DNA of 45,435 nt from Candidatus Bathyoplasma sp. NZ (GTDB taxonomy: Bacteria; Bacillota_I; Bacilli_A; MAG-NZ): NCBI GenBank assembly GCA_013332095.1, contig JABENI010000014.1:1-45435 (forward strand), in the 5' to 3' direction. Positions within the stretch are counted from its first letter, which is position 1, and every line of letters starts with the position of its first letter. The translations under genes were made by a program, and so were the position numbers. The notes under the pieces are model-generated. The model made no database searches, was not told where the DNA came from, and saw only the letters and a list, made by a program, of their open reading frames with translations. Of this stretch, positions 1-43,933 are shown piece after piece.

Positions 1-980
1 AATTGTATTTCCTATTTCGGCTAATGCTGTATTATTATTATCACTTATAATTGTTACTGTATCTAATTCCGGTGCTATATTTAATGTTACTGTACTTTGA
101 TCTTTTGTTGCCGTTACTGGAGTACCTTGGTTCCCAGCTAAATCAGCATATGTTATGTTAATTGCTGCTACTCCATCTGGATCTCCTTTTGCCGCTATAT
201 AAGTTGCTGTATATGTAGTTCCAGTTCCTGTTGGTATTACTGACTGTCCTGCTATTGTTACTCCTGGTGTTTGAATGTCCTCATTAGCTATTATTGTTAA
301 TGTAATTGTATTTCCTATTTCGGCTAATGCTGTATTATTATTATCACTTATAATTGTTACTGTATCTAATTCCGGTGCTATATTTAATGTTACTGTACTT
401 TGATCTTTTGTTGCCGTTACTGGAGTACCTGGGTTTCCAGCTAAATCAGCATATGTTATGTTAATTGCTGCTACTCCATCTGGATCTCCCTTTGCCGCTG
501 TATAAGTTGCTGTATATGTACCTGCACTTTCAGTTACACTTGCTGCTTTTCCTGCTATTGTTACTCCTGGTGTTTGAATGTCCTCATTAGCTATTATTGT
601 TAATGTAATTGTATTTCCTATTTCGGCTAATGCTGTATTATTATTATCACTTATAATTGTTACTGTATCTAATGTTGGTGCTATATTTAATGTTACTGTA
701 CTTTGATCTTTTGTTGCCGTTACTGGAGTACCTGCGTTCCCAACTAAATCAGCATATGTTATGTTAATTGCTGCTACTCCATCTGGATCTCCTTTTGCCG
801 CTGTATAAGTTGCTGTATATGTAGTTCCAGTTCCTGTTGGTATTATTGACTGTCCTGCTATTGTTACTGTTGGTGTTTGAATGGCCTCATTAGCTACTAT
901 TGTTAAGGTAATTGTATTTCCTATTTCGGCTAATGCTGTATTATTATTATCACTTATAATTGTTACTGTATCTAATATTG
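1..980. repeat. 303-bp near-identical tandem repeats inside the adhesin gene
   Basis: The same 20-mer beginning aattgtattt recurs at 1, 304, 607 and 910, an exact 303-bp (101-codon) period. Most of each unit is identical between copies. Differences are concentrated in a short loop just after 'VTIAG': two units encode a QS(I/V)IPTGTG-type loop and the unit between them encodes a KAASVTESAG-type loop. The array continues beyond the left edge. Such recent repeats are prone to copy-number change and to assembly collapse. Confidence 0.9.
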
Positions 981-1689: not shown

Positions 1690-4600
1690 TTATATTTTAC
1701 TACTTTTTTTTGTCATCGAATAAACTAATACACCTAAACCTGCTACTGCTGCTATTATTGCAATTGTTATTATCATCGTAGTATATTTTGTTGTTGCTAA
1801 TGTAGTGTTAATTATAATTTTCCCCTCTTGATTAACACTTAATTTGTACTCATTTGATATATCTTTGTCTCCACCTGTAGTTAAAGTTTCGATTTTGTAT
1901 CTTAATACTTTACCATTTGGTACTTCTACTACTAATTTTTCACCTTTAGCTAATTCTACTGATGGCATATCGGCTGCACTTGCAATTGGTATTAAACTTA
2001 GTGTTGATTCAGTCGTTTCATTAGTAATTTCATAATAAATTGTTACTTTTTCCATATTGTATTTTTCACTATTTTCAAATTCTACTGCTTTACCCTCTGC
2101 ACTTTCGTATACTTTCATAATTTCTTTTTCTTGTATCCATTGATTTTGAATATTTTCATTTATATCTGTTAAACTATAGTCTTTTCCATCAATTTTGTAA
2201 GATATTTTTGACTGATTTGTACTTTCTATTTTTTCATAATATTTCAATTCCGTTACTTTTATTATTTCATAAGCACTTTTGTTACGAATTAAGGCATATA
2301 AACTAGTTCCTTCTTCAGTAGTTGATAAGTTAATTTGACCTTCAGTAGATTGCCACTCTGCATCCAATGCTGGCTCAGAATCACTTACTACATATAGTAT
2401 TTCAGTATCTTCTAATTTCAACAATGGTGATTCTAAATCAACTGTGAATGTTTGAAAGCCTTCATTGATATCAATTGCTAACTCCTTAGATTCTTTTTTT
2501 CCTGTTACTACTACTGCTCTTTTAGCAGTATATTTATCTCCATCTTTATCTAATACGGTATAAATCAATTCATAAATCCCTACTTTACTTGTATCAATTT
2601 CGCCATCTATTTTTACACTTTCTTGCTCAATTGACTCATCTATTGATACTCCTAATTCCTCATATTCTTCATTAATATCTAAATACAAGGGCGAACTTCC
2701 TTTTAACGTTACTAATGTTATATTTGTAATAGTTTCTGTTGTTCGTACTACTTTTACTGTTCTAGTTGCACTTTTAATTCTACCTTGTTCATTAGTTACT
2801 GAATAAGTAATCACATATTCTCCTGCTTTGTCTTCATCAAAATCCTCTTTTTCTATTTCTACAATATCATTTAAAATTGTTCCATCTCCATCAATTGCGA
2901 TAAATCCTAATTCTTCGTATTCCGTTCCAATTCCGATATTAATACTTGCTGGTCCTATAATTTTAATATCCGGTATCAAAATTGATTCTGGACGATAATA
3001 ACCAACTGTTTTTGTTTCTGAAATATTTCCTGCTACATCTTTTATTTTAATTTCGTATCTTTGTTCAGCACTGAAAGAAATTATTTTTCTACTGCTTACT
3101 GTATCTAATACAATCCATGTCTCTCCATCATCTAAGGAATATGCTTGAATTCCTTCATCTCCTATTAATTCATAATCTTTTGTAGGTGTTTCTGATTCAC
3201 TTAATATGGTAGGATTTACAAGATCGACCTTCACATATCCTGTTGTTACTGAAGTTATTTCAACACCAATGTTTCCGGCTTTATCCTCATAATCATTTAT
3301 ATTAATAGTTACATTTCCTTCAGTAGTATCTTCATCTACTTCATATGTAGCGGTATAAGTAGATCCACTTCCTTCAACAACCGCACTCTCTCCGGCAATT
3401 GTCACTGTAGGTGCTTCCAATAAATTTTCGTTAGCTTCTATTATCAAAATTATAGTATCTCCGATTTTTGCTAATCCTGTATTAGTTAAGTTATTACTTT
3501 GTATTATTGCTAACAGTGTCGGTCCACTATTATCAATTTCTACAGTTCCTTCTGTTGTTTCTTCTACTTCAACTCCTTCATTTCCTGTTTTATCAATAAT
3601 TCCACTTATTTTAATATCCGCTATTCCTTCAGCACTACTTGCATCTATTACATATGTTGCTCTATAGTTAGTTCCACTTCCTGTTACCACTGTAGTTATT
3701 CCTGCTATTGTAACGGTTGGTTTATTTGCTAAATCTTCGTCTGATTCTATTGATAAAGTAATTATATCTCCTAATTTAGCGAACTCATCATCATCAGTAT
3801 TATTACTTACAATTTTTGTTGTTAACGTTGGTGGTGTTCTGTCAATCGCCACGCTTCCTGATGTTGCTTCAGTTACTGTTTCTCCCTCAAATCCGGTGTT
3901 GTTAATGTATCCTCTTATGCTTATTTCAGCATCTCCTTCTATTGCTTCTTCTGTTACTTCATAAGTTGCAGTATACTCTATTCCACTTCCGATTACTTTT
4001 GCATTTTGTCCTGCTATTCTAACAATTGGAGCTGTTTCTAAATTTTCATTGAATGTCAATGATAATGTAATTGTATCTCCTAATTTTGCTTTTGTATCAA
4101 CCTCATTATCACTTTTTATTGAAGCATTTGATACTGTCGGAGCACTTGTATCAATTGTAATATCACCTTCTGTTGCTGTTGTTATTGCCCCAATAGTGTT
4201 ACCAGCAACGTCTCTTAAACGACTTATATTAATGGCTACAGTTCCTTCAACAGTAGTAGATTCTACTTCATATGAAGCAATATATTCATCTTTGTTTTCT
4301 CCACTTGCTCTTACTGTTACACTTTGTCCGGCAATTGTAACCGTTGGAGTAATTCCTAAACTTTCATCAGCCTCTATTGTTAAAGTAATTGTATCTCCAC
4401 TTTTTGCATATTCCTCACTATCATTATCAGTTTCTATTTTTGTTGTTATAACTGGGTTAGTTCTATCGATTGTGATATCATCGCCTGATATTGTTTTAAA
4501 AGCCGTTGAATTAACATTACCTGCAATATCAGTTACATTACTTACATTAATTTTTACAGTTTCTTCACTATCAGTATTTTTCACTACATATGTTGCCATA

Positions 4601-16420: not shown

Positions 16421-16609
16421 ATGACAAAAGTATGTTATGTAACTGGTAAAAAAGTTAAAAGTGGTAACAATGTTTCTCACTCACTTCATCGTACAAAAAG
16501 AAGATTCAAACCAAATCTTCAAAAAATAAGAATCGAAGAAAATGGAAAAATCAAAAAGGTATATGTTACTGCTAGAGCATTAAAATCAGGAAAATTAAAT
16601 AGAGTATAA
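16421..16609 (+). CDS. rpmB: 50S ribosomal protein L28
   Basis: The 62-residue protein begins '[20 protein letters not shown]', with '[13 protein letters not shown]' following, and ends '[12 protein letters not shown]', matching L28. AAGGAGG lies 8 bases before the ATG. It is the only plus-strand protein gene in the window and converges on the thiN/spoVM side, as in Bacillus. Its last 32 codons with the terminator are tandemly duplicated immediately downstream. Confidence 0.96.
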
Positions 16610-16612
16610 TAA

Positions 16613-16640
16613 GGCATACCCATTAAGGTATGCTTATTTT
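16613..16640 (+). terminator. rpmB terminator, first copy
   Basis: Stem GGCATACC with GGTATGCT (16613-16620 and 16627-16634), six-base loop, then TATTTT. One end pair is mismatched compared with the second copy. Confidence 0.75.
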
Positions 16641-16658
16641 CTAAATAATCTTCGGAAT

Positions 16659-16754
16659 AATCTTCTAAAAATAAGAATCGAAGAAAATGGAAAAATCAAA
16701 AAGGTATACGTTACTGCTAGAGCATTAAAATCAGGAAAATTAAATAGAGTATAA
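16659..16754 (+). pseudogene. Duplicated 3' fragment of rpmB
   Basis: These 96 bases repeat codons 32-62 and the stop of rpmB, with a Gln-to-Leu change at the junction and one synonymous change. There is no start codon or ribosome-binding site in register and a terminator lies upstream, so it should be silent. It is the by-product of the 145-bp duplication. Confidence 0.85.
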
Positions 16755-16757
16755 TAA

Positions 16758-16785
16758 GGCATACCCATTGAGGTATGCCTATTTT
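16758..16785. terminator. Bidirectional terminator between rpmB copy and spoVM-like gene
   Basis: Perfect 8-bp stem GGCATACC/GGTATGCC (16758-16765 and 16772-16779) with a six-base loop. T-rich sequence follows on the plus strand, and TTATTATA follows on the minus strand. The last base of the stem is shared with the stop codon of the spoVM-like gene. Confidence 0.75.
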
Positions 16786-16859
16786 CTAAATAATCTTCGG
16801 AATAATCTTCTAAAAAATCTAATTATAAAACTTGGTATTTTCAAAATATAAACTTTCAT
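16779..16859 (-). CDS. spoVM: SpoVM-like 26-residue amphipathic peptide
   Basis: This short frame was found by reading the gap between thiN and rpmB, the exact place of spoVM in Bacillus subtilis. It encodes 26 residues, the same length as B. subtilis SpoVM. It starts MKVYILKIPSF, against MKFYTIKLPKF in Bacillus, and ends in an Arg/Phe/Leu-rich amphipathic segment [12 protein letters not shown]. Met1, Lys2, Tyr4, Lys7, Pro9, Phe11 and Arg17 align without gaps; Pro9 is important in known SpoVM. AGGAAG lies 8 bases before the ATG. SpoVM marks the convex forespore membrane and recruits the coat ATPase SpoIVA. The C-terminal part is more basic than Bacillus SpoVM, so function in curvature sensing is inferred. 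It lies 37 bp after thiN and is probably co-transcribed with it. Confidence 0.72.
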   Translation of the reverse strand: MKVYILKIPSFIIRFFRRLFRRLFRK

Positions 16860-26056: not shown

Positions 26057-26602
26057 TTAACAACATCGTGGATTTTCTACATGACATCTTAGTTCACTTG
26101 AGCATGTATGATTAGATCTATAAGTATGTTTTTGTATTTTGTGATTAACAACATGCGTATGATAATTACAAATATGTGGAATTTCTTCTACATGGTATTT
26201 GTGAACTACTTTACATTTGTTGTGAACGATTGGTTGTTTACAACTAGGGTAACAATTCATTGGTTTATGGCACTGTTGGTAGGCCATCTGTTTATCGTAC
26301 TCTGGGTATTGCATTGATTTATCGTACTCTGGGTATGACATCGATTTATCATATTTTGGATATGACATCGATTTATGCTCAGGATACATTGATCCACCGT
26401 ACATCTTACATGATTGATATGACATCGGTTTATCGTACTTTGGATATGACATCGGTTTATGCATAGGATACATTGGTCCACCACACATCTTGCATGAATG
26501 ATACGGCATATACTGATTTTTCATCTCTTCGTAACCATTTGAACCTTTTTTATCTTTTTCACCATTTCCATATTTACTATTCTTTTCATAAGAATGATAC
26601 AT
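26057..26602 (-). CDS. CotD-like Cys/His/Tyr/Met-rich protein (spore coat family)
   Basis: The 181-residue protein has no signal peptide. Residues ~1-125 are rich in Met, Tyr, Lys, Pro and Cys and contain short repeats of the type 'MSYPKYDK' and 'SCKMCGGPMYP'. Residues ~125-181 resemble the CotD spore inner-coat family: 'PIVHNK', 'HVEEIPHICNYHTHVVNH', spaced His residues and a terminal CC. CotD proteins are cross-linked coat components in Bacillus; Tyr- and Cys-rich tracts suit cross-linking or metal binding. The Met/Tyr repeat domain is not part of Bacillus CotD. An excellent GAGGAGGAG site precedes the ATG. It stands alone between polC and pheS. If the host does not sporulate, it could be a stress-related or metal-binding surface protein. 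Confidence 0.6.
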   Translation of the reverse strand: MYHSYEKNSKYGNGEKDKKGSNGYEEMKNQYMPYHSCKMCGGPMYPMHKPMSYPKYDKPMSYQSCKMYGGSMYPEHKSMSYPKYDKSMSYPEYDKSMQYPEYDKQMAYQQCHKPMNCYPSCKQPIVHNKCKVVHKYHVEEIPHICNYHTHVVNHKIQKHTYRSNHTCSSELRCHVENPRCC

Positions 26603-35533: not shown

Positions 35534-35677
35534 TTAAAATTTTCTTAATTTGCTTGCGCTCTCTGGTAATTCTGGTTGGTGTAAGTAGAAAAGACAAGTT
35601 GAATTAGCACTAACTACTGCCACTAATAAAGCTAACCCTGATATTACTTTTCCATATTTCGTTAAAAATAAATTCAT
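35534..35677 (-). CDS. agrD: AgrD-like cyclic (thio)lactone autoinducer pre-peptide
   Basis: This 47-residue frame was found by reading the gap behind the histidine kinase gene. It has an N-terminal amphipathic/hydrophobic leader (MNLFLTKYGKVISGLALLVA), a core 'ANSTCLFYL' with Cys28, and an acidic/proline tail 'HQPELPE'. That is the hallmark of clostridial-type AgrD peptides such as C. perfringens AgrD (SAC..WFTHQPEEP). By analogy the mature signal would be a five-residue thiolactone ring Cys28-Leu-Phe-Tyr-Leu32 with a short N-terminal tail; ring and tail lengths are inferred. A very strong GGAGGAGGGG site precedes the ATG. It follows the AgrC-like kinase, and no AgrB peptidase gene is present in the window. 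Confidence 0.85.
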   Translation of the reverse strand: MNLFLTKYGKVISGLALLVAVVSANSTCLFYLHQPELPESASKLRKF

Positions 35678-35784: not shown

Positions 35785-37074
35785 TTAAATTATTAACTGT
35801 ATTTTTACACTGAAAATATTATCAGAAATTTTAAATTCAAGATTCCCATTATTTTTTAAAATGATAGCTTTTACATTTTTTAATCCTATTCCATGGTTTC
35901 TTTTATCTGCCTTTGTTGTCGTAAATTTGAAATTTTTATCATAGATTAATTTTTTACTATAGTAATTGCTTATTTTTATCAACAGTATATTTTGTACATA
36001 AAAAACTTTTAAATAAATTGTTTTCTTGCCATTTTGTACAGTTACATTTTCTATCGCATTATCTAGTAAATTTCCTAAAATACTGACCATGTCGAGATCA
36101 GAAACCTCTAATTTAGTTGGTACTTTTACATTAAGATCAAACTCAACATCATTTTCTTTAGCTTGGGAAACTTTATAATTGATAATACTATCTAAAAGGG
36201 CATTGTCAGTTTCTAATATTTTTTTAGGTTTAACTAGAATTTTATATTTTTCATCAATGCAAATTTTTGCTTCTTCTAGTTGTCCTCTATTTAAGTACTC
36301 TTTTAATGCAATCATTTGATTTTTGATGTCATGTTGAAGTGAACGAGCATCTGACAGTGATTTGTCAAAAAGATTAAGTTGTGCTATATACATTTTATTT
36401 CTTTCTAGCATTTTACAATATTCAACTTCATCCTCATAATCTCTAGTTATTTTATCATATAAATAAAAAATATAAATATTCAATAAAAATAAACACACTG
36501 TGCTTACTAGAATAATCCATAAGTTATAAGTGGGCAACAAAATGATAATAGTTACTAATGTGGAAACAACTGGAAATAATACTAATAAAAATATTGGTAT
36601 TTTTGATACTTCAAATCCATTTTTAACTGTTTTTGTTCGGACAAAGTACACTACAAAGATATAAGTTAATATTTTACAGATTATCAAGCCAATTATCATT
36701 TCATTATCTTTATTTAGTACCCCAGAAAAATAAGAAGAATTAATTAATTGAACCATCGCATAGACAGCGGACTCTATACAAAATGTTAACGTATAAATAA
36801 TTATCATTATTCTCAAACTTTTTAAATAATTTCGGCTATAAATTAAAGCAATTAAAAATAGTGCTACCGTGTTAATAAATAAATTCATTTTCGGCTGACC
36901 GATTTTAATAACCAATAAAGTGCTAACTAAATAGTAAACAATATATAGAATAATTTCTAATTTTTTATTTATCTCTTTTTTCACAAAAAAACCATTCATA
37001 AAATAACCAAGTGTATAAACATTAAAAATATTAGCAATAATGTAGGTATACTGTAAATTATTCAAATTTATCAC
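35785..37074 (-). CDS. AgrC-like sensor histidine kinase, copy 1
   Basis: The 429-residue protein has about six to seven membrane helices in residues 1-205, followed by a coiled linker and a GHKL kinase domain of the AgrC (HPK10) class. The phosphoacceptor His248 is in 'LQHDIKNQ', the N-box is 'NLLDNAIE' (Asn335, Asn339) and the G-box is 'NHGIGLKNVK'. AgrC senses the cyclic peptide made from AgrD. It overlaps the response regulator upstream by 17 bp, and agrD follows 107 bp after its stop. It is highly similar to the kinase at 38066-39358 (shared starts, 'YFVRTKTVKxGFEV', same domain lengths), indicating duplication. The cognate peptide is presumably the adjacent AgrD. Confidence 0.88.
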   Translation of the reverse strand: MINLNNLQYTYIIANIFNVYTLGYFMNGFFVKKEINKKLEIILYIVYYLVSTLLVIKIGQPKMNLFINTVALFLIALIYSRNYLKSLRIMIIIYTLTFCIESAVYAMVQLINSSYFSGVLNKDNEMIIGLIICKILTYIFVVYFVRTKTVKNGFEVSKIPIFLLVLFPVVSTLVTIIILLPTYNLWIILVSTVCLFLLNIYIFYLYDKITRDYEDEVEYCKMLERNKMYIAQLNLFDKSLSDARSLQHDIKNQMIALKEYLNRGQLEEAKICIDEKYKILVKPKKILETDNALLDSIINYKVSQAKENDVEFDLNVKVPTKLEVSDLDMVSILGNLLDNAIENVTVQNGKKTIYLKVFYVQNILLIKISNYYSKKLIYDKNFKFTTTKADKRNHGIGLKNVKAIILKNNGNLEFKISDNIFSVKIQLII

Positions 37075-37780
37075 CCATAAATTTTAAATATTCACTTCTT
37101 GCTTTTTTCAGATATTGTTGACTTATCGGCAATTCAATTCCATTTATTAAAACAACATCGCTCCTACTAAATTTTTCTATATACTCAGCGTTCACGGCAT
37201 AAGATTTATGAATTCGAATAAATTTACTATCATTTAGTATATTTACGAAATTTGTCAATTTGTCATAGCAAATATATGTCTTTTGGTTAGAGTAAACAGT
37301 TATTATTCTTTTGTCACTTTTTATAAACATAATTTTATCTTTCATTACTCTATGTAAAATACTTTTAAATTTGAAAATTATAGAATATTCATTTTCATCA
37401 CACTGCTTAAAATATGATGTCATAACAGAAAATAGCTTTTCATCTGTTATTGGTTTAATTAGAAAATCAAACGGTCTATTTTTAAACAAATCAATGGCAT
37501 ATGTGGCTTTTCCAGAAACATAAATAATTTCAAGTTTCTTAATATTAAACTTCCTTCTAAGGTATTTACCTATTTCAATTCCATCTGAATCACCTAGTTC
37601 AATGTCTAAAAACAACAAATCATATTCTATCAGATTTTCTATATCCTTTACTAAATTTTTGTAGTCAGTATAAATTGTAAGTTCGAATTCATTATTTTCA
37701 AAAAATGAATATTTATTTAATTTTTCTTTTAAATTTTGACAAAATATGCTTTCGTCATCACAAATAGCAATACTGAACAT
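37058..37780 (-). CDS. AgrA-like LytTR response regulator, copy 1
   Basis: The 240-residue protein has a receiver domain (acidic pocket Asp8-Asp9, phosphoacceptor Asp59 in 'LLFLDIELG', conserved Lys109 in 'FLIKP') and a C-terminal LytTR DNA-binding domain ('FIKSDKRIITVYS...FIRIHKSYAVNAEYI'). Such regulators bind paired 9-bp direct repeats; one is seen before agrD. It overlaps its kinase by 17 bp. It is a close paralogue of the regulator at 39339-40061. AAAAGGAG precedes the ATG. Confidence 0.9.
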   Translation of the reverse strand: MFSIAICDDESIFCQNLKEKLNKYSFFENNEFELTIYTDYKNLVKDIENLIEYDLLFLDIELGDSDGIEIGKYLRRKFNIKKLEIIYVSGKATYAIDLFKNRPFDFLIKPITDEKLFSVMTSYFKQCDENEYSIIFKFKSILHRVMKDKIMFIKSDKRIITVYSNQKTYICYDKLTNFVNILNDSKFIRIHKSYAVNAEYIEKFSRSDVVLINGIELPISQQYLKKARSEYLKFMGDKFE

Positions 37781-38065
37781 TTTTTTCTCCTTTTTAAATA
37801 TTATTTGAAAATATTAATAATATAAGTTTATCTCTATCTAATTCAGTTTTATTTTTTAATACCAAATTTTTTGATATTTAATATTTTTATTAAAACCTTT
37901 TCCAGATTTTATATTCTTTATATGGTTATCATTGGTAAAATTGATCGCATTGTTATTCTTTAAAAACTGATAATATTGTGTAGAATTGTATGTATAATTT
38001 ACCATTCAATATTTCTAAAAATAATTTTTAATTTTATAATCACAAAGTAATCTATTTTTTATTCA

Positions 38066-39358
38066 TTAATTCAACTGCACTTTTACTGTAAAAATATTCT
38101 CACAAATTTCAAATTCAATGCTACCATCAAGCATTTCAATAGTACTTTTTACATTTTCTAGTCCGATTCCATGATTTTTTTTATCTGCTTTCGTACTAGT
38201 AAATTTTAGTTTTTTCTTATCATAAATTATTTTTTTATTAAAATAGTTAGAAATTTTTATAATTAATACATTATGAATATAACGCATTTTCAAATAAACA
38301 GTTTTTTTATTATTTTGTATACTAACATTTTCCATTGCATTATCTAATAAATTACCAAAGATACTAACCATATCTTCATCAGGGAAATCAATTTTATCTG
38401 GTATTATTACATCTAAATTAAATTCAACATTATTTTCTTTTCCTTCATATATTTTATAATTAATAATGCTGTCTATAGAAAAATTATCGGTTTTCAAACT
38501 TTTTTCCGCTGTATCTAAAATAATATATTTTTGATTGATAATTTTTAAAGCTTTTTCCGATTGATTTGTATTTAAGTATTCTGTTACTAAAATCATTTGA
38601 TTTTTTATGTCGTGCTGGAGTAAACTAACATTTTTAAGTGTTTCTTGATAAAATGTAAGTTGCATATCATACATCCTATTTCTTTCGATTATTTTATAAA
38701 ATTTTATCTCTTCTTCATAATCTTTAATCAACTTGCCATACAAGTAAAACACATAAATATTTAAAACAAATAGAAGTATTGTATTCATTAAAATTAAAAA
38801 TAAGTTTTGTGTTGAAAACAAAGTTGTAATTGTCATGATAATAGAAAATATTGGAAAAGAAACTAATATAACAGTTGGTATTTTAGCTACTTCAAAGCCA
38901 CTTTTTACTGTTTTCGTTCGAATAAAATATAATGCAAAAATATATGTTAATATTTTCGATAGTACTAAACTAACTATAATCTCCTTATTTGAAGTTAAAT
39001 ATTCTGAAAAATATTTCTCATTAATCAATCTAACTCCAACGTATACTATTGATTCAATACAAAATGCCAATGTATAAACGATTATAGTTACTCTCACACT
39101 TTTAAGAAAATTGCGACTATACATCAAAGAAATCAATAATAATCCACCTAAACTGACTAATAAATTGATTGATGGATCTTCAATTAAAATAATTAGAGTA
39201 GTACTGAGTAAATAAAAAATAATGTGGATACCAACTTCTAATTTTTTGTTTATATCAGTTTTATTAAAAAAACCATTCATAAAATAATAGAGAGTATAAA
39301 TGTTGAAGATATTAGTTACAATATAGGTCCATTGTAAATTACTCAAATCTAGCACCAA
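38066..39358 (-). CDS. AgrC-like sensor histidine kinase, copy 2
   Basis: The 430-residue paralogue of the 35785-37074 kinase has the same order of features: about six to seven membrane helices, His249 in 'LQHDIKNQ', N-box 'NLLDNAME', G-box 'NHGIGLENVK'. The N-terminal sensor domains differ more than the kinase core, so ligand specificity may differ. It overlaps its regulator by 20 bp. No convincing AgrD-like frame lies immediately downstream, so this copy may share the single AgrD, respond to another peptide, or have lost its ligand gene. Confidence 0.87.
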   Translation of the reverse strand: MVLDLSNLQWTYIVTNIFNIYTLYYFMNGFFNKTDINKKLEVGIHIIFYLLSTTLIILIEDPSINLLVSLGGLLLISLMYSRNFLKSVRVTIIVYTLAFCIESIVYVGVRLINEKYFSEYLTSNKEIIVSLVLSKILTYIFALYFIRTKTVKSGFEVAKIPTVILVSFPIFSIIMTITTLFSTQNLFLILMNTILLFVLNIYVFYLYGKLIKDYEEEIKFYKIIERNRMYDMQLTFYQETLKNVSLLQHDIKNQMILVTEYLNTNQSEKALKIINQKYIILDTAEKSLKTDNFSIDSIINYKIYEGKENNVEFNLDVIIPDKIDFPDEDMVSIFGNLLDNAMENVSIQNNKKTVYLKMRYIHNVLIIKISNYFNKKIIYDKKKLKFTSTKADKKNHGIGLENVKSTIEMLDGSIEFEICENIFTVKVQLN

Positions 39359-40061
39359 TAAATTTTTTATATTGTTTTTTGGCGATTTTTGTAAATTGCT
39401 GACTTACTGGTATTCTAATATCGCCTTCTAAAATAACTTCGCTTCTACTAAATTTTTTCACATATGTAGCGTTCACTGCGTAAGATTTATGAATTTGGAT
39501 AAAGTCTTCATCATTTAATAATTTTAGAAAATCTTCTAATTTACTGTAACACTCAAATTCTTCGTTACTAGAGTAAATACGTGTTAATCTCCTATCACTT
39601 TTTATAAATTTTATTTTATTCTTTGGCATTGTGTGAAAAGAATTTCTGAATTTAAAAGTTACGAAATGCTCTAATTTATTATTTTCTCTAAAATACAAAG
39701 TCATAACATATTTCACTTTTTTATAAGTAATCGGTTTAACTAAAAAATCAAGTGGTTTATTTTCGAATAATTCTAGAGCGTACGTTGTATTTCCAGAAAC
39801 ATATACAATTTCAAGTTTATAACTATTAAATCTATCTCTGAGATATTTACCAATTTCAATACCATTAGAATCACCTAATTCAATATCTAAAAACAATAAA
39901 TCAAATTCAATTTCATCTTCAATATCACGAATAAAATCCTTATAATCAGTGTAAATATGAAAATTAAATTCGTTATTTTTAACAAATGAATATTCGATTA
40001 GTTTCTCGTGCAAATTATCACAAAATATTTTTTCATCATCGCAAATAGCAATATTCAGCAT
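39339..40061 (-). CDS. AgrA-like LytTR response regulator, copy 2
   Basis: The 240-residue paralogue of the copy 1 regulator has the same length and the same landmarks: Asp8-Asp9, Asp59 in 'LLFLDIELG', 'FLVKPIT', and LytTR core 'FIQIHKSYAVNATYV'. It is encoded directly upstream of its kinase with a 20-bp overlap. GGAG precedes the ATG. It lies 42 bp after the GNAT gene and may be co-transcribed with it. Confidence 0.9.
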   Translation of the reverse strand: MLNIAICDDEKIFCDNLHEKLIEYSFVKNNEFNFHIYTDYKDFIRDIEDEIEFDLLFLDIELGDSNGIEIGKYLRDRFNSYKLEIVYVSGNTTYALELFENKPLDFLVKPITYKKVKYVMTLYFRENNKLEHFVTFKFRNSFHTMPKNKIKFIKSDRRLTRIYSSNEEFECYSKLEDFLKLLNDEDFIQIHKSYAVNATYVKKFSRSEVILEGDIRIPVSQQFTKIAKKQYKKFIGARFE

Positions 40062-40103: not shown

Positions 40104-40601
40104 TTATTCATTAAGCAAAAACTCCATGTTATACCATTTTTCGCCACCATGCTCTGAAATAGAAACACCTAAATTCACAAAACCAAAACTCTTATAATAC
40201 TCTATTTTTTTTTCTTTACAAGTGAGAATCAATTTTTCTTTTTTATTTTTTTTAGATTGAATTATTAAAAAATCTAATAATTTTTTTCCGAATCCTTTTC
40301 TTTGAAAATCAGGATGCACAGCTAAACTAAAAATTAAAACATTATTATCTGATTGTTTCCGTTCCTTCATCGATTCGAAAAAATCATCTTCAATTATTTC
40401 ACTGTTGGAGATAGCTCCATTCACATATCCGATTATTTCATTATTTAATATACCAACTAAGCACACTTCATTAAAATAAATTATTCGTTTTTTGATTGCT
40501 TTTAATGACGCTGCCTCACATTCAGGAAAACATGCAGATTCAATATAAAACATTTTATTAGCATTTTCAATTAAAGCATTTTTAATTACAAAATTATTCA
40601 T
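40104..40601 (-). CDS. GNAT acetyltransferase, arylalkylamine N-acetyltransferase-like
   Basis: The ~165-residue GNAT enzyme has the acetyl-CoA loop 'VHPDFQRKGFGKKLL'. Its N-terminal 'FPECEAASLKAIKKRI' and C-terminal 'YYKSFGFVNLGVSISEHGGEKWYNM' are typical of the serotonin/arylalkylamine N-acetyltransferase subgroup. The substrate is probably an amine, but is not defined by sequence. I use the ATG at 40601, five bases after GGGAGG; an in-frame TTG at 40616 is part of the ribosome-binding site. It may be the first gene of the agr-like transcript. Confidence 0.85.
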   Translation of the reverse strand: MNNFVIKNALIENANKMFYIESACFPECEAASLKAIKKRIIYFNEVCLVGILNNEIIGYVNGAISNSEIIEDDFFESMKERKQSDNNVLIFSLAVHPDFQRKGFGKKLLDFLIIQSKKNKKEKLILTCKEKKIEYYKSFGFVNLGVSISEHGGEKWYNMEFLLNE

Positions 40602-40650
40602 TCTTCCTCCCTCCAATTATTATTTACCTGTAGAAAATTTCAAAATATAT

Positions 40651-40680
40651 ATTATACAATTTGAATTACATATTAATCAA
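40651..40680 (-). promoter_or_regulatory. Promoter upstream of the GNAT gene
   Basis: TTGATT (40680-40675), an 18-base spacer and perfect TATAAT (40656-40651) directly preceded by TG on the minus strand. It is the best candidate promoter for GNAT and the copy 2 regulator/kinase pair. Confidence 0.7.
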
Positions 40681-40702
40681 TAACTGAGTGTTCATCGATT
40701 TA

Positions 40703-42400
40703 TTTATATAATTTTCCAATATAATTAGTTAATTTATCTTGAAAATAATCAATTTACTTTCAAAATTTATAAATTGAGTAATATATCATATTACAATTTT
40801 ACTACAAATAATTTTAAAAACAAATGAAATTATGTATAAATTTTTATTTTTCTGCAAATCTTGAACATTTTTTCTATTTATAAAATTAAACTATAACTGA
40901 ATATCATTCTAATATTTTAAATTACTTTTAATTCACATCAAAGATAAATTGTTTTTCAATCTCAATTATTTATAAAATTTTCCATTCAAGTTCTAAAATT
41001 TTACTATTTATCGTAAAATAAATTATTTTATTTCCAAAATTTACCAATCGTGTTCATCTGTTATAATACAATTTTACTATAAATAATTATAAAAATAAAC
41101 AAAAATCATATTTGAATCTAATATTTTATTATTTTTAGATTCCCATTCCCTCAAGTTCATACATAGTCGAAACACCTCAGCTAAATTTGATTTTCCTTTT
41201 ATTAGTGAATTTTTATAAATTCCGAATTATTTATAAAATTTTCCATTCAAGTTCCAAAATTTTATTATTTATTGCAAAGTAACTTACTTTATTTCCAAAA
41301 TTTGCCAATCGTGTTCATCTGTTATATTACAATTTTACTATAAATAATTATAAAAATAAACAAAAATCATATTTGAATCTAATATTTTAATATTTTTAGA
41401 TTCCCATTCCCTCAAGTTCATACATAATCAAAACATCTCAGCTAAATTTGGTTTTCTTTTTATTAATGAATTTTTTTAAATTTCGAGTTATTTATAAAAT
41501 TTTCCATTCAAGTTCCAAAATTTTGTTATTTATCTTAAAATAAATTAGTTTATTTCCAAAATTTCCCAATCGTGTTCATCTGTTATAATACAATTTTACT
41601 ATAAATAATTATAAAAATAAACAAAAATCATATTTGAATCTAATATTTTATTATTTTTAGATTCTCCATTCTCTCAAGTTCACACATAATCGAAACATCT
41701 CAGCTAAGTTTGGTTTTCTTTTTATTAATGAATTTTTTTAAATTTCGAGTTATTTATAAAATTTTCCATTCAAGTTCCAAAATTTTATTATTTATTGCAA
41801 AGTAATTTACTTTATTTCCAAAATTTGCCAATCGTGTTCATCTGTTATATTACAATTTTACTATAAATAATTATAAAAATAAACAAAAATCATATTTGAA
41901 TCTAATATTTTATTATTTTTAGATTCTCCATTCTCTCAAGTTCACACATAATTAAAACATCTCAGCTAAATTTGGTTTTCTTTTTATTAATGAATTTTTT
42001 TAAATTTCGAATTATTTATAAAATTTTCCATTCAAGCTCCAAAATTTTATTATTTATTGCAAGGTAACTTGCTTTATTTCCAAAATTTGCCAATCGTGTT
42101 CACCTGTTATATTACAATTTTACTATAAATAATTATAAAAATAAACAAAAATCATATTTAAATCTATTATTTTTAGATTCTGCATTCTCTCAAGTTCATA
42201 CATAATCGAAACATCTCAGCTAAATTTGGTTTTCTTTTTATTAATGAATTTTTTTAAATTTCGAATTATTTATAAAATTTTCCATTCAAGTTCCAAAATT
42301 TTATTATTTATCGCAAAATCATTTGCTTTATTTCCAAAATTTGCCAGTCGTGTTCATTTGTTATATTATAATTTTACTATAAAAAAACTTTAAAACAAGT
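40703..42400. repeat. Non-coding tandem array of ~261-bp repeats
   Basis: The motif tccattcaag recurs at 40981, 41242, 41503, 41765, 42027 (as tccattcaag with one c change nearby) and 42281, giving periods of 261, 261, 262, 262 and 254 bp. Units are very similar over their whole length. A more decayed unit precedes the array (from about 40703). Each unit contains two AAAATTTT blocks 21 bp apart, an inverted repeat of the AAAGTAA/TTACTTT type, a TGTTATAAT- or TGTTATATT-like element on the plus strand, and a GAATCTAA/TTAGATTC hairpin. No long reading frame is seen. It separates the agr-like locus from murC. Confidence 0.9.
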
Positions 42401-42656
42401 GCAATATTAATTTTATTTTTTTATAATTATTCCTTCACCTCCATTTAAAATTCACAATTTGATTAAACCATTAAACTAATATTTCAAACATATTTTATTT
42501 ACCTGTTGATCATTTATCTCTAGTTTAGTTATTTTAAAATTTTTCTTTGTGTACTATATTTTTTTGATTAAATTGTCATAAAAACTATAAATTGCGATAA
42601 TTATCTAATTGTTCATGTTGTGATGTTATTTTACTACAAAAAAATTTTAAATGCAA
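42401..42656. repeat. Decayed flank of the 261-bp array
   Basis: AT-rich, gene-free sequence. Around 42598-42655 the text (gcgataatta... tgttcatgtt... ttttactaca) matches the central part of the 261-bp unit with many changes, suggesting an old degenerate copy. The rest shows no feature I can name. Confidence 0.5.
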
Positions 42657-42680
42657 ATAAAAAAGAATATTTAAATATTC
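42656..42680 (-). terminator. murC terminator
   Basis: A perfect GAATATTT/AAATATTC palindrome (42665-42680) followed by six T residues on the minus strand. The murC stop codon lies inside it. Confidence 0.75.
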
Positions 42681-43933
42681 TCTCTTAATTTTTCTATTTC
42701 TTCATTTATAGTGCCTGCACCCATGAATATTAATAAATAATCTAAATTTCCAATATAAACATTTAAATCTATCAAACTATATTTTTTGGCACCATTTGTT
42801 TTTTTTAATAGTTTTAAAAATAATGTTTCATCAATATTTTCTCTAACTGAAGAAAAAATTTTGTCTATAAAAACTACATCTGCTAAATTTAGAACATCGG
42901 AAAATTCATTTAACAAGCTTTTAGTTCTTGTATAAGTATGTGGTTGAAATATTACAACTATTTTTTTATTATATTTTTGCTTCACTCCATCAAATAAAGA
43001 TTTTATTTCACTTGGATGATGCGCATAATCATCAATAATTATTTGTCCATTTATTTCAGTTTCTTGAAATCTTCTATCCGGAAGTTTGTAATTATCAATT
43101 TCTTTTTGAATTTTTTTATCGCTTATTCCAATTGATTTACAAAAACTAAAAGTAGCTAAGAAATTTAGTACCATATAATCACCATAGAATGGCAATTGAT
43201 ATTCATGAATAATTTCTAAATATTTTATTTCTATCTTATAACCTTTAGAATCTTTTTCTATTATTTTACAGTAAACATCATCCTCATCCTCAAAACCGAA
43301 AGTTATTTTATTAGTATGATCAATGTTGTATCTACCATTTATGATTAATTTTTCTGACTGTGAAGCAAATTTTTGAAACGATTTGTATGTACTAGTTAAA
43401 TCATTAAAATAATCCGGATGATCAAACTCTATATTAGTAATAATTGCTGTTTTAGGAAAATGTATTAAAAAGTGATCTTTGTATTCACATGCTTCTAAAA
43501 TAGTATACATATAATTTTTTTTTGCATACCCAGTTCCATCTCCAATGATTGAACAAATAGAATATTCTTCTTTTAAAATAGTTGAAATCATTTTTGTTGT
43601 TGTGGTCTTTCCATGTGTCCCGGAAATTGCTATTAAATTTTTAACTATTTTTTTTTCAATAAATTCATTATATCCGTAGATTTCTAAATTCAAATTTAGT
43701 GCTTTTTTATATTCATCATTTTTAAATGCATTACCTTTAATAATTATTTGATTTTCTTTAATATTATCTATGCTAAAATTATAAATTTGTATGCCTTTAT
43801 TTACTAAAGATTTTTCAGTATAAAAATAATCGCTATAATCTGATCCTGATATCTTATAACCTAAATCATACAGTACATTAGCTAACGCACTCATTCCTGC
43901 ACCTTTAATCCCTATCATAAATATTTCTTTCAT
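42671..43933 (-). CDS. murC: UDP-N-acetylmuramate--L-alanine ligase
   Basis: The 420-residue Mur ligase adds L-Ala to UDP-MurNAc in cytoplasmic peptidoglycan synthesis. The N-terminal domain has 'FMIGIKGAGMSALA' and 'ISGSDYSD'; the ATP P-loop is 'AISGTHGKTTTTKMI'; the central domain has 'NIEFDHPDYF'; the C-terminal domain has 'DDYAHHPSEIKSL', 'FQPHTYTRTKSL' and 'LIFMGAGTI'. Length is slightly short for the family but all motifs are present. It appears monocistronic, with AGGTGAT before the ATG. Confidence 0.97.
   Translation of the reverse strand: MKEIFMIGIKGAGMSALANVLYDLGYKISGSDYSDYFYTEKSLVNKGIQIYNFSIDNIKENQIIIKGNAFKNDEYKKALNLNLEIYGYNEFIEKKIVKNLIAISGTHGKTTTTKMISTILKEEYSICSIIGDGTGYAKKNYMYTILEACEYKDHFLIHFPKTAIITNIEFDHPDYFNDLTSTYKSFQKFASQSEKLIINGRYNIDHTNKITFGFEDEDDVYCKIIEKDSKGYKIEIKYLEIIHEYQLPFYGDYMVLNFLATFSFCKSIGISDKKIQKEIDNYKLPDRRFQETEINGQIIIDDYAHHPSEIKSLFDGVKQKYNKKIVVIFQPHTYTRTKSLLNEFSDVLNLADVVFIDKIFSSVRENIDETLFLKLLKKTNGAKKYSLIDLNVYIGNLDYLLIFMGAGTINEEIEKLRENI

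Follow-up and report, generated by a model that had tools for sequence, protein, structure and literature searches.

The window analysed here is the whole of contig C9 (45,435 bp), which belongs to a draft genome of 1.82 Mb in 44 contigs. Within it, a gene-free gap of 2,054 bp (40617-42670) separates a murC-like gene from a GNAT acetyltransferase gene, and this gap is occupied by a noncoding tandem array with a G+C content of 20%, against 28.5% for the window. The array lies upstream of the GNAT gene, which precedes the first agrA in the same orientation. A promoter-like site of the GNAT gene's own, TTGATT-18-TATAAT at 40680-40651, is found between the array and the gene. The features are as follows; identities of the units are to the reference unit U3.

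35535-35676, minus strand: agrD, encoding an AgrD-type precursor of an autoinducing peptide, MNLFLTKYGKVISGLALLVAVVSANSTCLFYLHQPELPESASKLRKF (TIGR04223 at 49.7 bits, cut-off 19)
35785-40061, minus strand: two tandem agrA-agrC pairs, their AgrCs 58% identical to each other
40104-40616, minus strand: GNAT acetyltransferase gene, downstream of the array
40695-40875, minus strand: UL, decayed left unit, ~73% identical, with the exact core TTTGTAGTAAAATTGTAATAT
40966-41219, minus strand: U1, 254 bp, 94% identical
41220-41480, minus strand: U2, 261 bp, 94% identical
41481-41742, minus strand: U3, 262 bp, the reference unit for searches
41743-42004, minus strand: U4, 262 bp, 95% identical
42005-42258, minus strand: U5, 254 bp, 90% identical
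42259-42386, minus strand: U6, half unit, 89% identical over 128 bp
42500-42670, minus strand: UR, strongly decayed right unit, ~60% identical, with TTTGTAGTAAAAT and ATGAACA in phase
42671-43933, minus strand: murC-like gene, upstream of the array (TIGR01082, 317 bits, below the cut-off of 335)

The agr locus that the original prediction placed next to the array is indeed there, with agrD and both agrA-agrC pairs, and agrB lies on a separate contig (C34:106388-106912, 135 bits) with no agrD beside it. The agrD gene is small and missing from the gene list. A third AgrC-like kinase fragment was observed in the stretch L133 (G000:C36:100000-106000) at about 3238-3408, 56% identical to AgrC1 over the last 58 residues; a transposase-like ORF (2332-2724, named by eye) lies within 1 kb of it.

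The structure of the array was established in three ways. Tandem Repeats Finder (TRF) reported 40947-42383 with a period of 262, 5.5 copies, 93% matches and a score of 2417. BLAST of one unit against the genome returned seven in-phase copies at the murC-GNAT locus, six strong and one of 73% at 40695-40824. The third line of evidence is a core motif, TTTRTAGTAAAAT, which occurs eight times in phase, always on the minus strand, from beside murC to beside the GNAT promoter (minus-strand positions 40808, 41083, 41344, 41605, 41867, 42129, 42383 and 42640), with spacings of 275, 261, 261, 262, 262, 254 and 257 bp. All three agree with the six copies, decayed ends and gene desert first described. 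The stretch 40966-42386 consists of five full units, with identities of 90-97%, plus half a unit; in the core-anchored series, units 2-7 show a mutual identity of 72-97% and both ends are the most decayed. Against first-order Markov shuffles, local alignment to the unit gave p < 0.005 for the left end (40617-40965) and p = 0.01 for the right end (42387-42670), where UR itself was recognised via the core motif. An extent of 40703-42400 had been proposed; the repeat phase reaches somewhat further and spans the entire murC-GNAT gap in eight copies.

The length of this gap is not exceptional by itself, since a genome sample of 445 kb (400 kb of stretches plus the window) has repeat-free gaps of 2,371 and 2,342 bp elsewhere in which no ORF reaches 80 aa; the longer one holds two tRNAs. 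The remarkable part is the noncoding tandem array and not the gene desert. Further long arrays in the same sample, defined by a period of 60 or more and over three copies, all have a period divisible by 3, and one of them, examined in translation, was coding.

The units differ pairwise at 6-23 sites and every unit is distinct from every other. Among them, 49 of 264 alignment columns are variable, the longest invariant run is 29 columns (p = 0.09), and two-allele changes comprise 25 transitions against 5 transversions. The variants are distributed as a mosaic, pairing U1 with U3 (columns 162-216), U3 with U4 (column 67), U1 with U2 (column 78) and U2 with U4 (column 58). The four-gamete test on the five full units fails in 10 of 21 pairs of informative sites, which means that a single duplication tree cannot explain the variants. 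Recombination or gene conversion between units would explain them, and the mosaicism together with the transition excess fits repeated exchange of this kind. High identity in the centre, decay at the edges and mosaic variants form the pattern that unequal exchange would be expected to leave, which is in keeping with the suggestion of a long-lived array undergoing homogenisation.

Taken together, these observations indicate that the locus probably carries a satellite-like, locally born, recombining and near-neutral noncoding tandem array. A segment of about 260 bp of AT-rich intergenic DNA between murC and GNAT would have been duplicated in place, through slippage or accidental recombination; unequal homologous recombination or gene conversion would then have expanded the copies and partly homogenised them. 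Exchange would keep the central units alike, while units at the ends would exchange less and decay. Such an array would need no encoded product and, apart from keeping murC at a distance from the GNAT promoter, most likely has little or no function under selection. The array has at least three head-to-tail intergenic copies, no conserved frame and signs of inter-copy exchange, as is expected of a satellite or VNTR (variable-number tandem repeat) locus; the recombination mechanism and the near-neutrality are what we infer from this. Three points count against the near-neutral reading: neutral arrays of such length are regarded as uncommon where bacterial genomes are compact, the core is exact in all eight units, and a small hairpin in the units carries a few compensatory changes.

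The possibility that the units encode something was addressed on the level of protein and of RNA. No frame of at least 35 aa is common to the units and a period of 262 is not divisible by 3, on which grounds a decayed protein repeat was rejected, as had been proposed; a CRISPR array was likewise dismissed, in agreement with the original prediction, as the units of about 262 bp are contiguous and contain no spacers. The longest plus-strand frame, 55 aa at 42226-42393, is missing from the other units. All six near-intact units keep open a nine-codon minus-strand frame, MNTIGKFWK, in which the glycine codon varies synonymously (GGC, GGT, GGG) and the start codon changes from ATG to GTG; this would be compatible with a micro-peptide gene for this or a similar short peptide in each unit. 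However, so short a frame gives too little to judge by, a Shine-Dalgarno sequence was not seen upstream, isoleucine is replaced by threonine in one unit, both decayed units lack the frame, and variation within it is not below that of the rest of the unit. Micro-peptide genes are therefore an extremely improbable explanation.

Alternatively, each unit may be a small-RNA gene that yields a short minus-strand transcript, in the manner of tandem sibling sRNA arrays. In favour of this, the promoter-like core is followed by the small hairpin, in which two pairs are changed on both sides (GCAAG/CTTGC to GTAAA/TTTGC); further 3' there is an inverted repeat of 10 bp whose 13-base centre hardly varies, and then a GAATCTA..TAGATTC inverted repeat, with the 8-base deletion of U5 confined to its loop. 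Against it, 59 of 500 shuffles show as much covariation, and in U1 and U3 the hairpin is either lost or displaced. Neither decayed unit contains the GAACTTGAATGG centre, and it does not occur elsewhere in the genome. Neither strand folds beyond dinucleotide shuffles (z = 0.27 for minus and 1.01 for plus), the only terminator-like site in the array is on the plus strand of one unit, and Rfam gave no match in the array. A structured RNA was rejected on the folding, covariation and Rfam results. The source of small RNAs that had been suggested thus finds no support in the folding of either strand, and sRNA genes seem a quite unlikely reading of the array.

A further reading is that the array acts in cis, each unit providing a binding site or promoter, so that copy number tunes GNAT or agr expression or titrates a regulator. 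Several features point in this direction. The core is present in eight of eight units, including those decayed to ~73% and ~60%, on one strand and at a spacing of 254-275 bp; the TAAAAT within it is similar to a -10 hexamer; the co-oriented GNAT-agrA-agrC genes follow directly downstream of the array, and its cores point toward them; and A-tract-like words show a weak peak at a 10.5-bp period (p = 0.038, uncorrected for the number of tests). However, the longest run kept across all eight units is 8 columns, for which a rotation test gave p = 0.088. Conservation of the core beyond chance is suggestive at most, because the right unit was recognised by that same motif. Promoter-like sites are not in excess (32 in 3 kb, where shuffles gave 28.9 ± 5.6), and the GNAT gene has its own promoter-like site beyond the array. 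The core is not enriched genome-wide, with 10 further matches against 6 for the reversed control, and it was rejected as a general promoter element. DNA curvature of the array does not exceed that of shuffled sequence (p = 0.29), and curved or architectural DNA was set aside on this result. If either the promoter or the sRNA explanation were true, discrete 5' ends would be expected just 3' of TAGTAAAAT on the minus strand.

The neighbouring regulators make AgrA an obvious candidate for binding. In staphylococci, LytTR/AgrA direct repeats take the form ACAGTTAAG-N12-ACAGTTAGG. The array resembles such sites in its setting, as LytTR regulators of the AgrA type are encoded next to it and an AgrA-like box pair, ACAAAAAAG-N12-ACATTTAAG, lies upstream of agrD (14 of 18 matches, reached by none of 200 shuffles). 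The array unit itself, in contrast, has no such repeats: AgrA-type box pairs (9 bp each, 20-22 bp apart) are not enriched in it (p = 0.97), and an AgrA/LytTR binding array was rejected. Of the protein-binding locus once envisaged, the part that would involve AgrA-type repeats did not hold, and the core motif remains as a weak hint. Apart from position, no connection between the array and agr was found, so the notion of a recombination substrate affecting agr was not sustained. A look-alike of the unit in the agrC1-agrA2 gap, TTTTAGAAATATTGAATGGTAAATTATA, is within chance (p = 0.13) and was discarded. A cis-regulatory array is thus rather unlikely. A more elaborate version, in which a lineage-specific platform of about eight binding or promoter cores feeds into GNAT-agrAC and recombination-changed copy number tunes quorum sensing between cells, has a small chance of being correct.

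The satellite-like reading is consistent with the distribution of the unit. BLAST found no copy of it in the 1.82-Mb genome outside the murC-GNAT locus, which answers the call for a genome-wide search made at the outset, and a mobile or dispersed repeat was rejected. The array unit had no match in plasmids or phages and the exact core pattern none in viral contigs, so that a plasmid or phage origin was also rejected. Weak matches of 40-48 bits (best 48.2) were obtained in 19 of 60 relatives, a set with no congener; the dinucleotide-shuffled unit gave matches in 9 of the 60, up to 45.5 bits. The weak matches were not accepted as homologues, being short, AT-rich and of a strength also given by the shuffled unit. 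The original prediction had held that absence from all relatives, together with a lack of transcription or protein binding, would favour neutral satellite DNA; no comparable match to the unit was found in these 60, which is a weak test as no congener is among them. When the core was searched as a pair at 253-283 bp spacing, it was found in this genome and in none of the other 295 among the 296 class genomes searched. Via MurC, the closest named relative proved to be Mycoplasmatota bacterium zrk6 (CP074575.1, 51% MurC identity), in which murC stands in a different setting without an array. Neither this GNAT nor a close AgrC is present in CP074575.1 or in the two other genomes of the family.

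An assembly artefact or a wrong copy number in the draft contig would be another way to account for the array. In its favour, the window makes up an entire contig of a draft assembly in 44 contigs, and one end of that contig enters a 303-bp repeat. However, the flanks are unique, and this together with the pairwise differences between units shows that the copies are distinct; the exact number alone could be wrong. An artefact is therefore very unlikely.

Bacterial intergenic tandem repeats, such as minisatellites and VNTR loci, are known from mycobacteria, Wolbachia and others, and most VNTR units are shorter than 262 bp. The present array is similar to these in its head-to-tail intergenic copies, the lack of a conserved frame, the divergence between copies and the signs of recombination. 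It differs in its longer unit (262 bp) and strongly decayed end units, and it is known from one genome. The homogenised centre, decayed edges and mosaic variants also resemble eukaryotic satellite DNA shaped by unequal crossing over, although here the copies number only about eight, within a single intergenic region of a bacterium, and no role in chromosome segregation is indicated. Tandem sibling sRNA arrays, of which Listeria LhrC is an example, likewise place several similar copies head to tail between two genes, each with a promoter-like core; unlike in them, the units of the present array do not each have a terminator, neither strand folds better than shuffles and there is no Rfam match. 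The literature searched contained no matching precedent. On present evidence this is an ordinary repeat array, and it serves as a small and clear-cut case of satellite-like concerted evolution within a bacterial chromosome. If the core were functional, the array would be a copy-number-variable control region adjoining a quorum-sensing locus.

Other repeats were noticed along the way. At 1-976 (minus strand), 3.2 copies of a 303-bp repeat run off the contig end within a large ORF that resembles a surface protein and has weak Ig-like matches, and contig C44 carries another array of 303-bp period (L162:9773-12295). A 145-bp tandem duplication at 16514-16816 (2.1 copies, 97%) ends in a terminator-like palindrome, AAGGCATACCCATTAAGGTATGC. 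Finally, a 181-aa ORF at 26057-26602 (minus strand), which has no Pfam match, contains 27-bp coding repeats.
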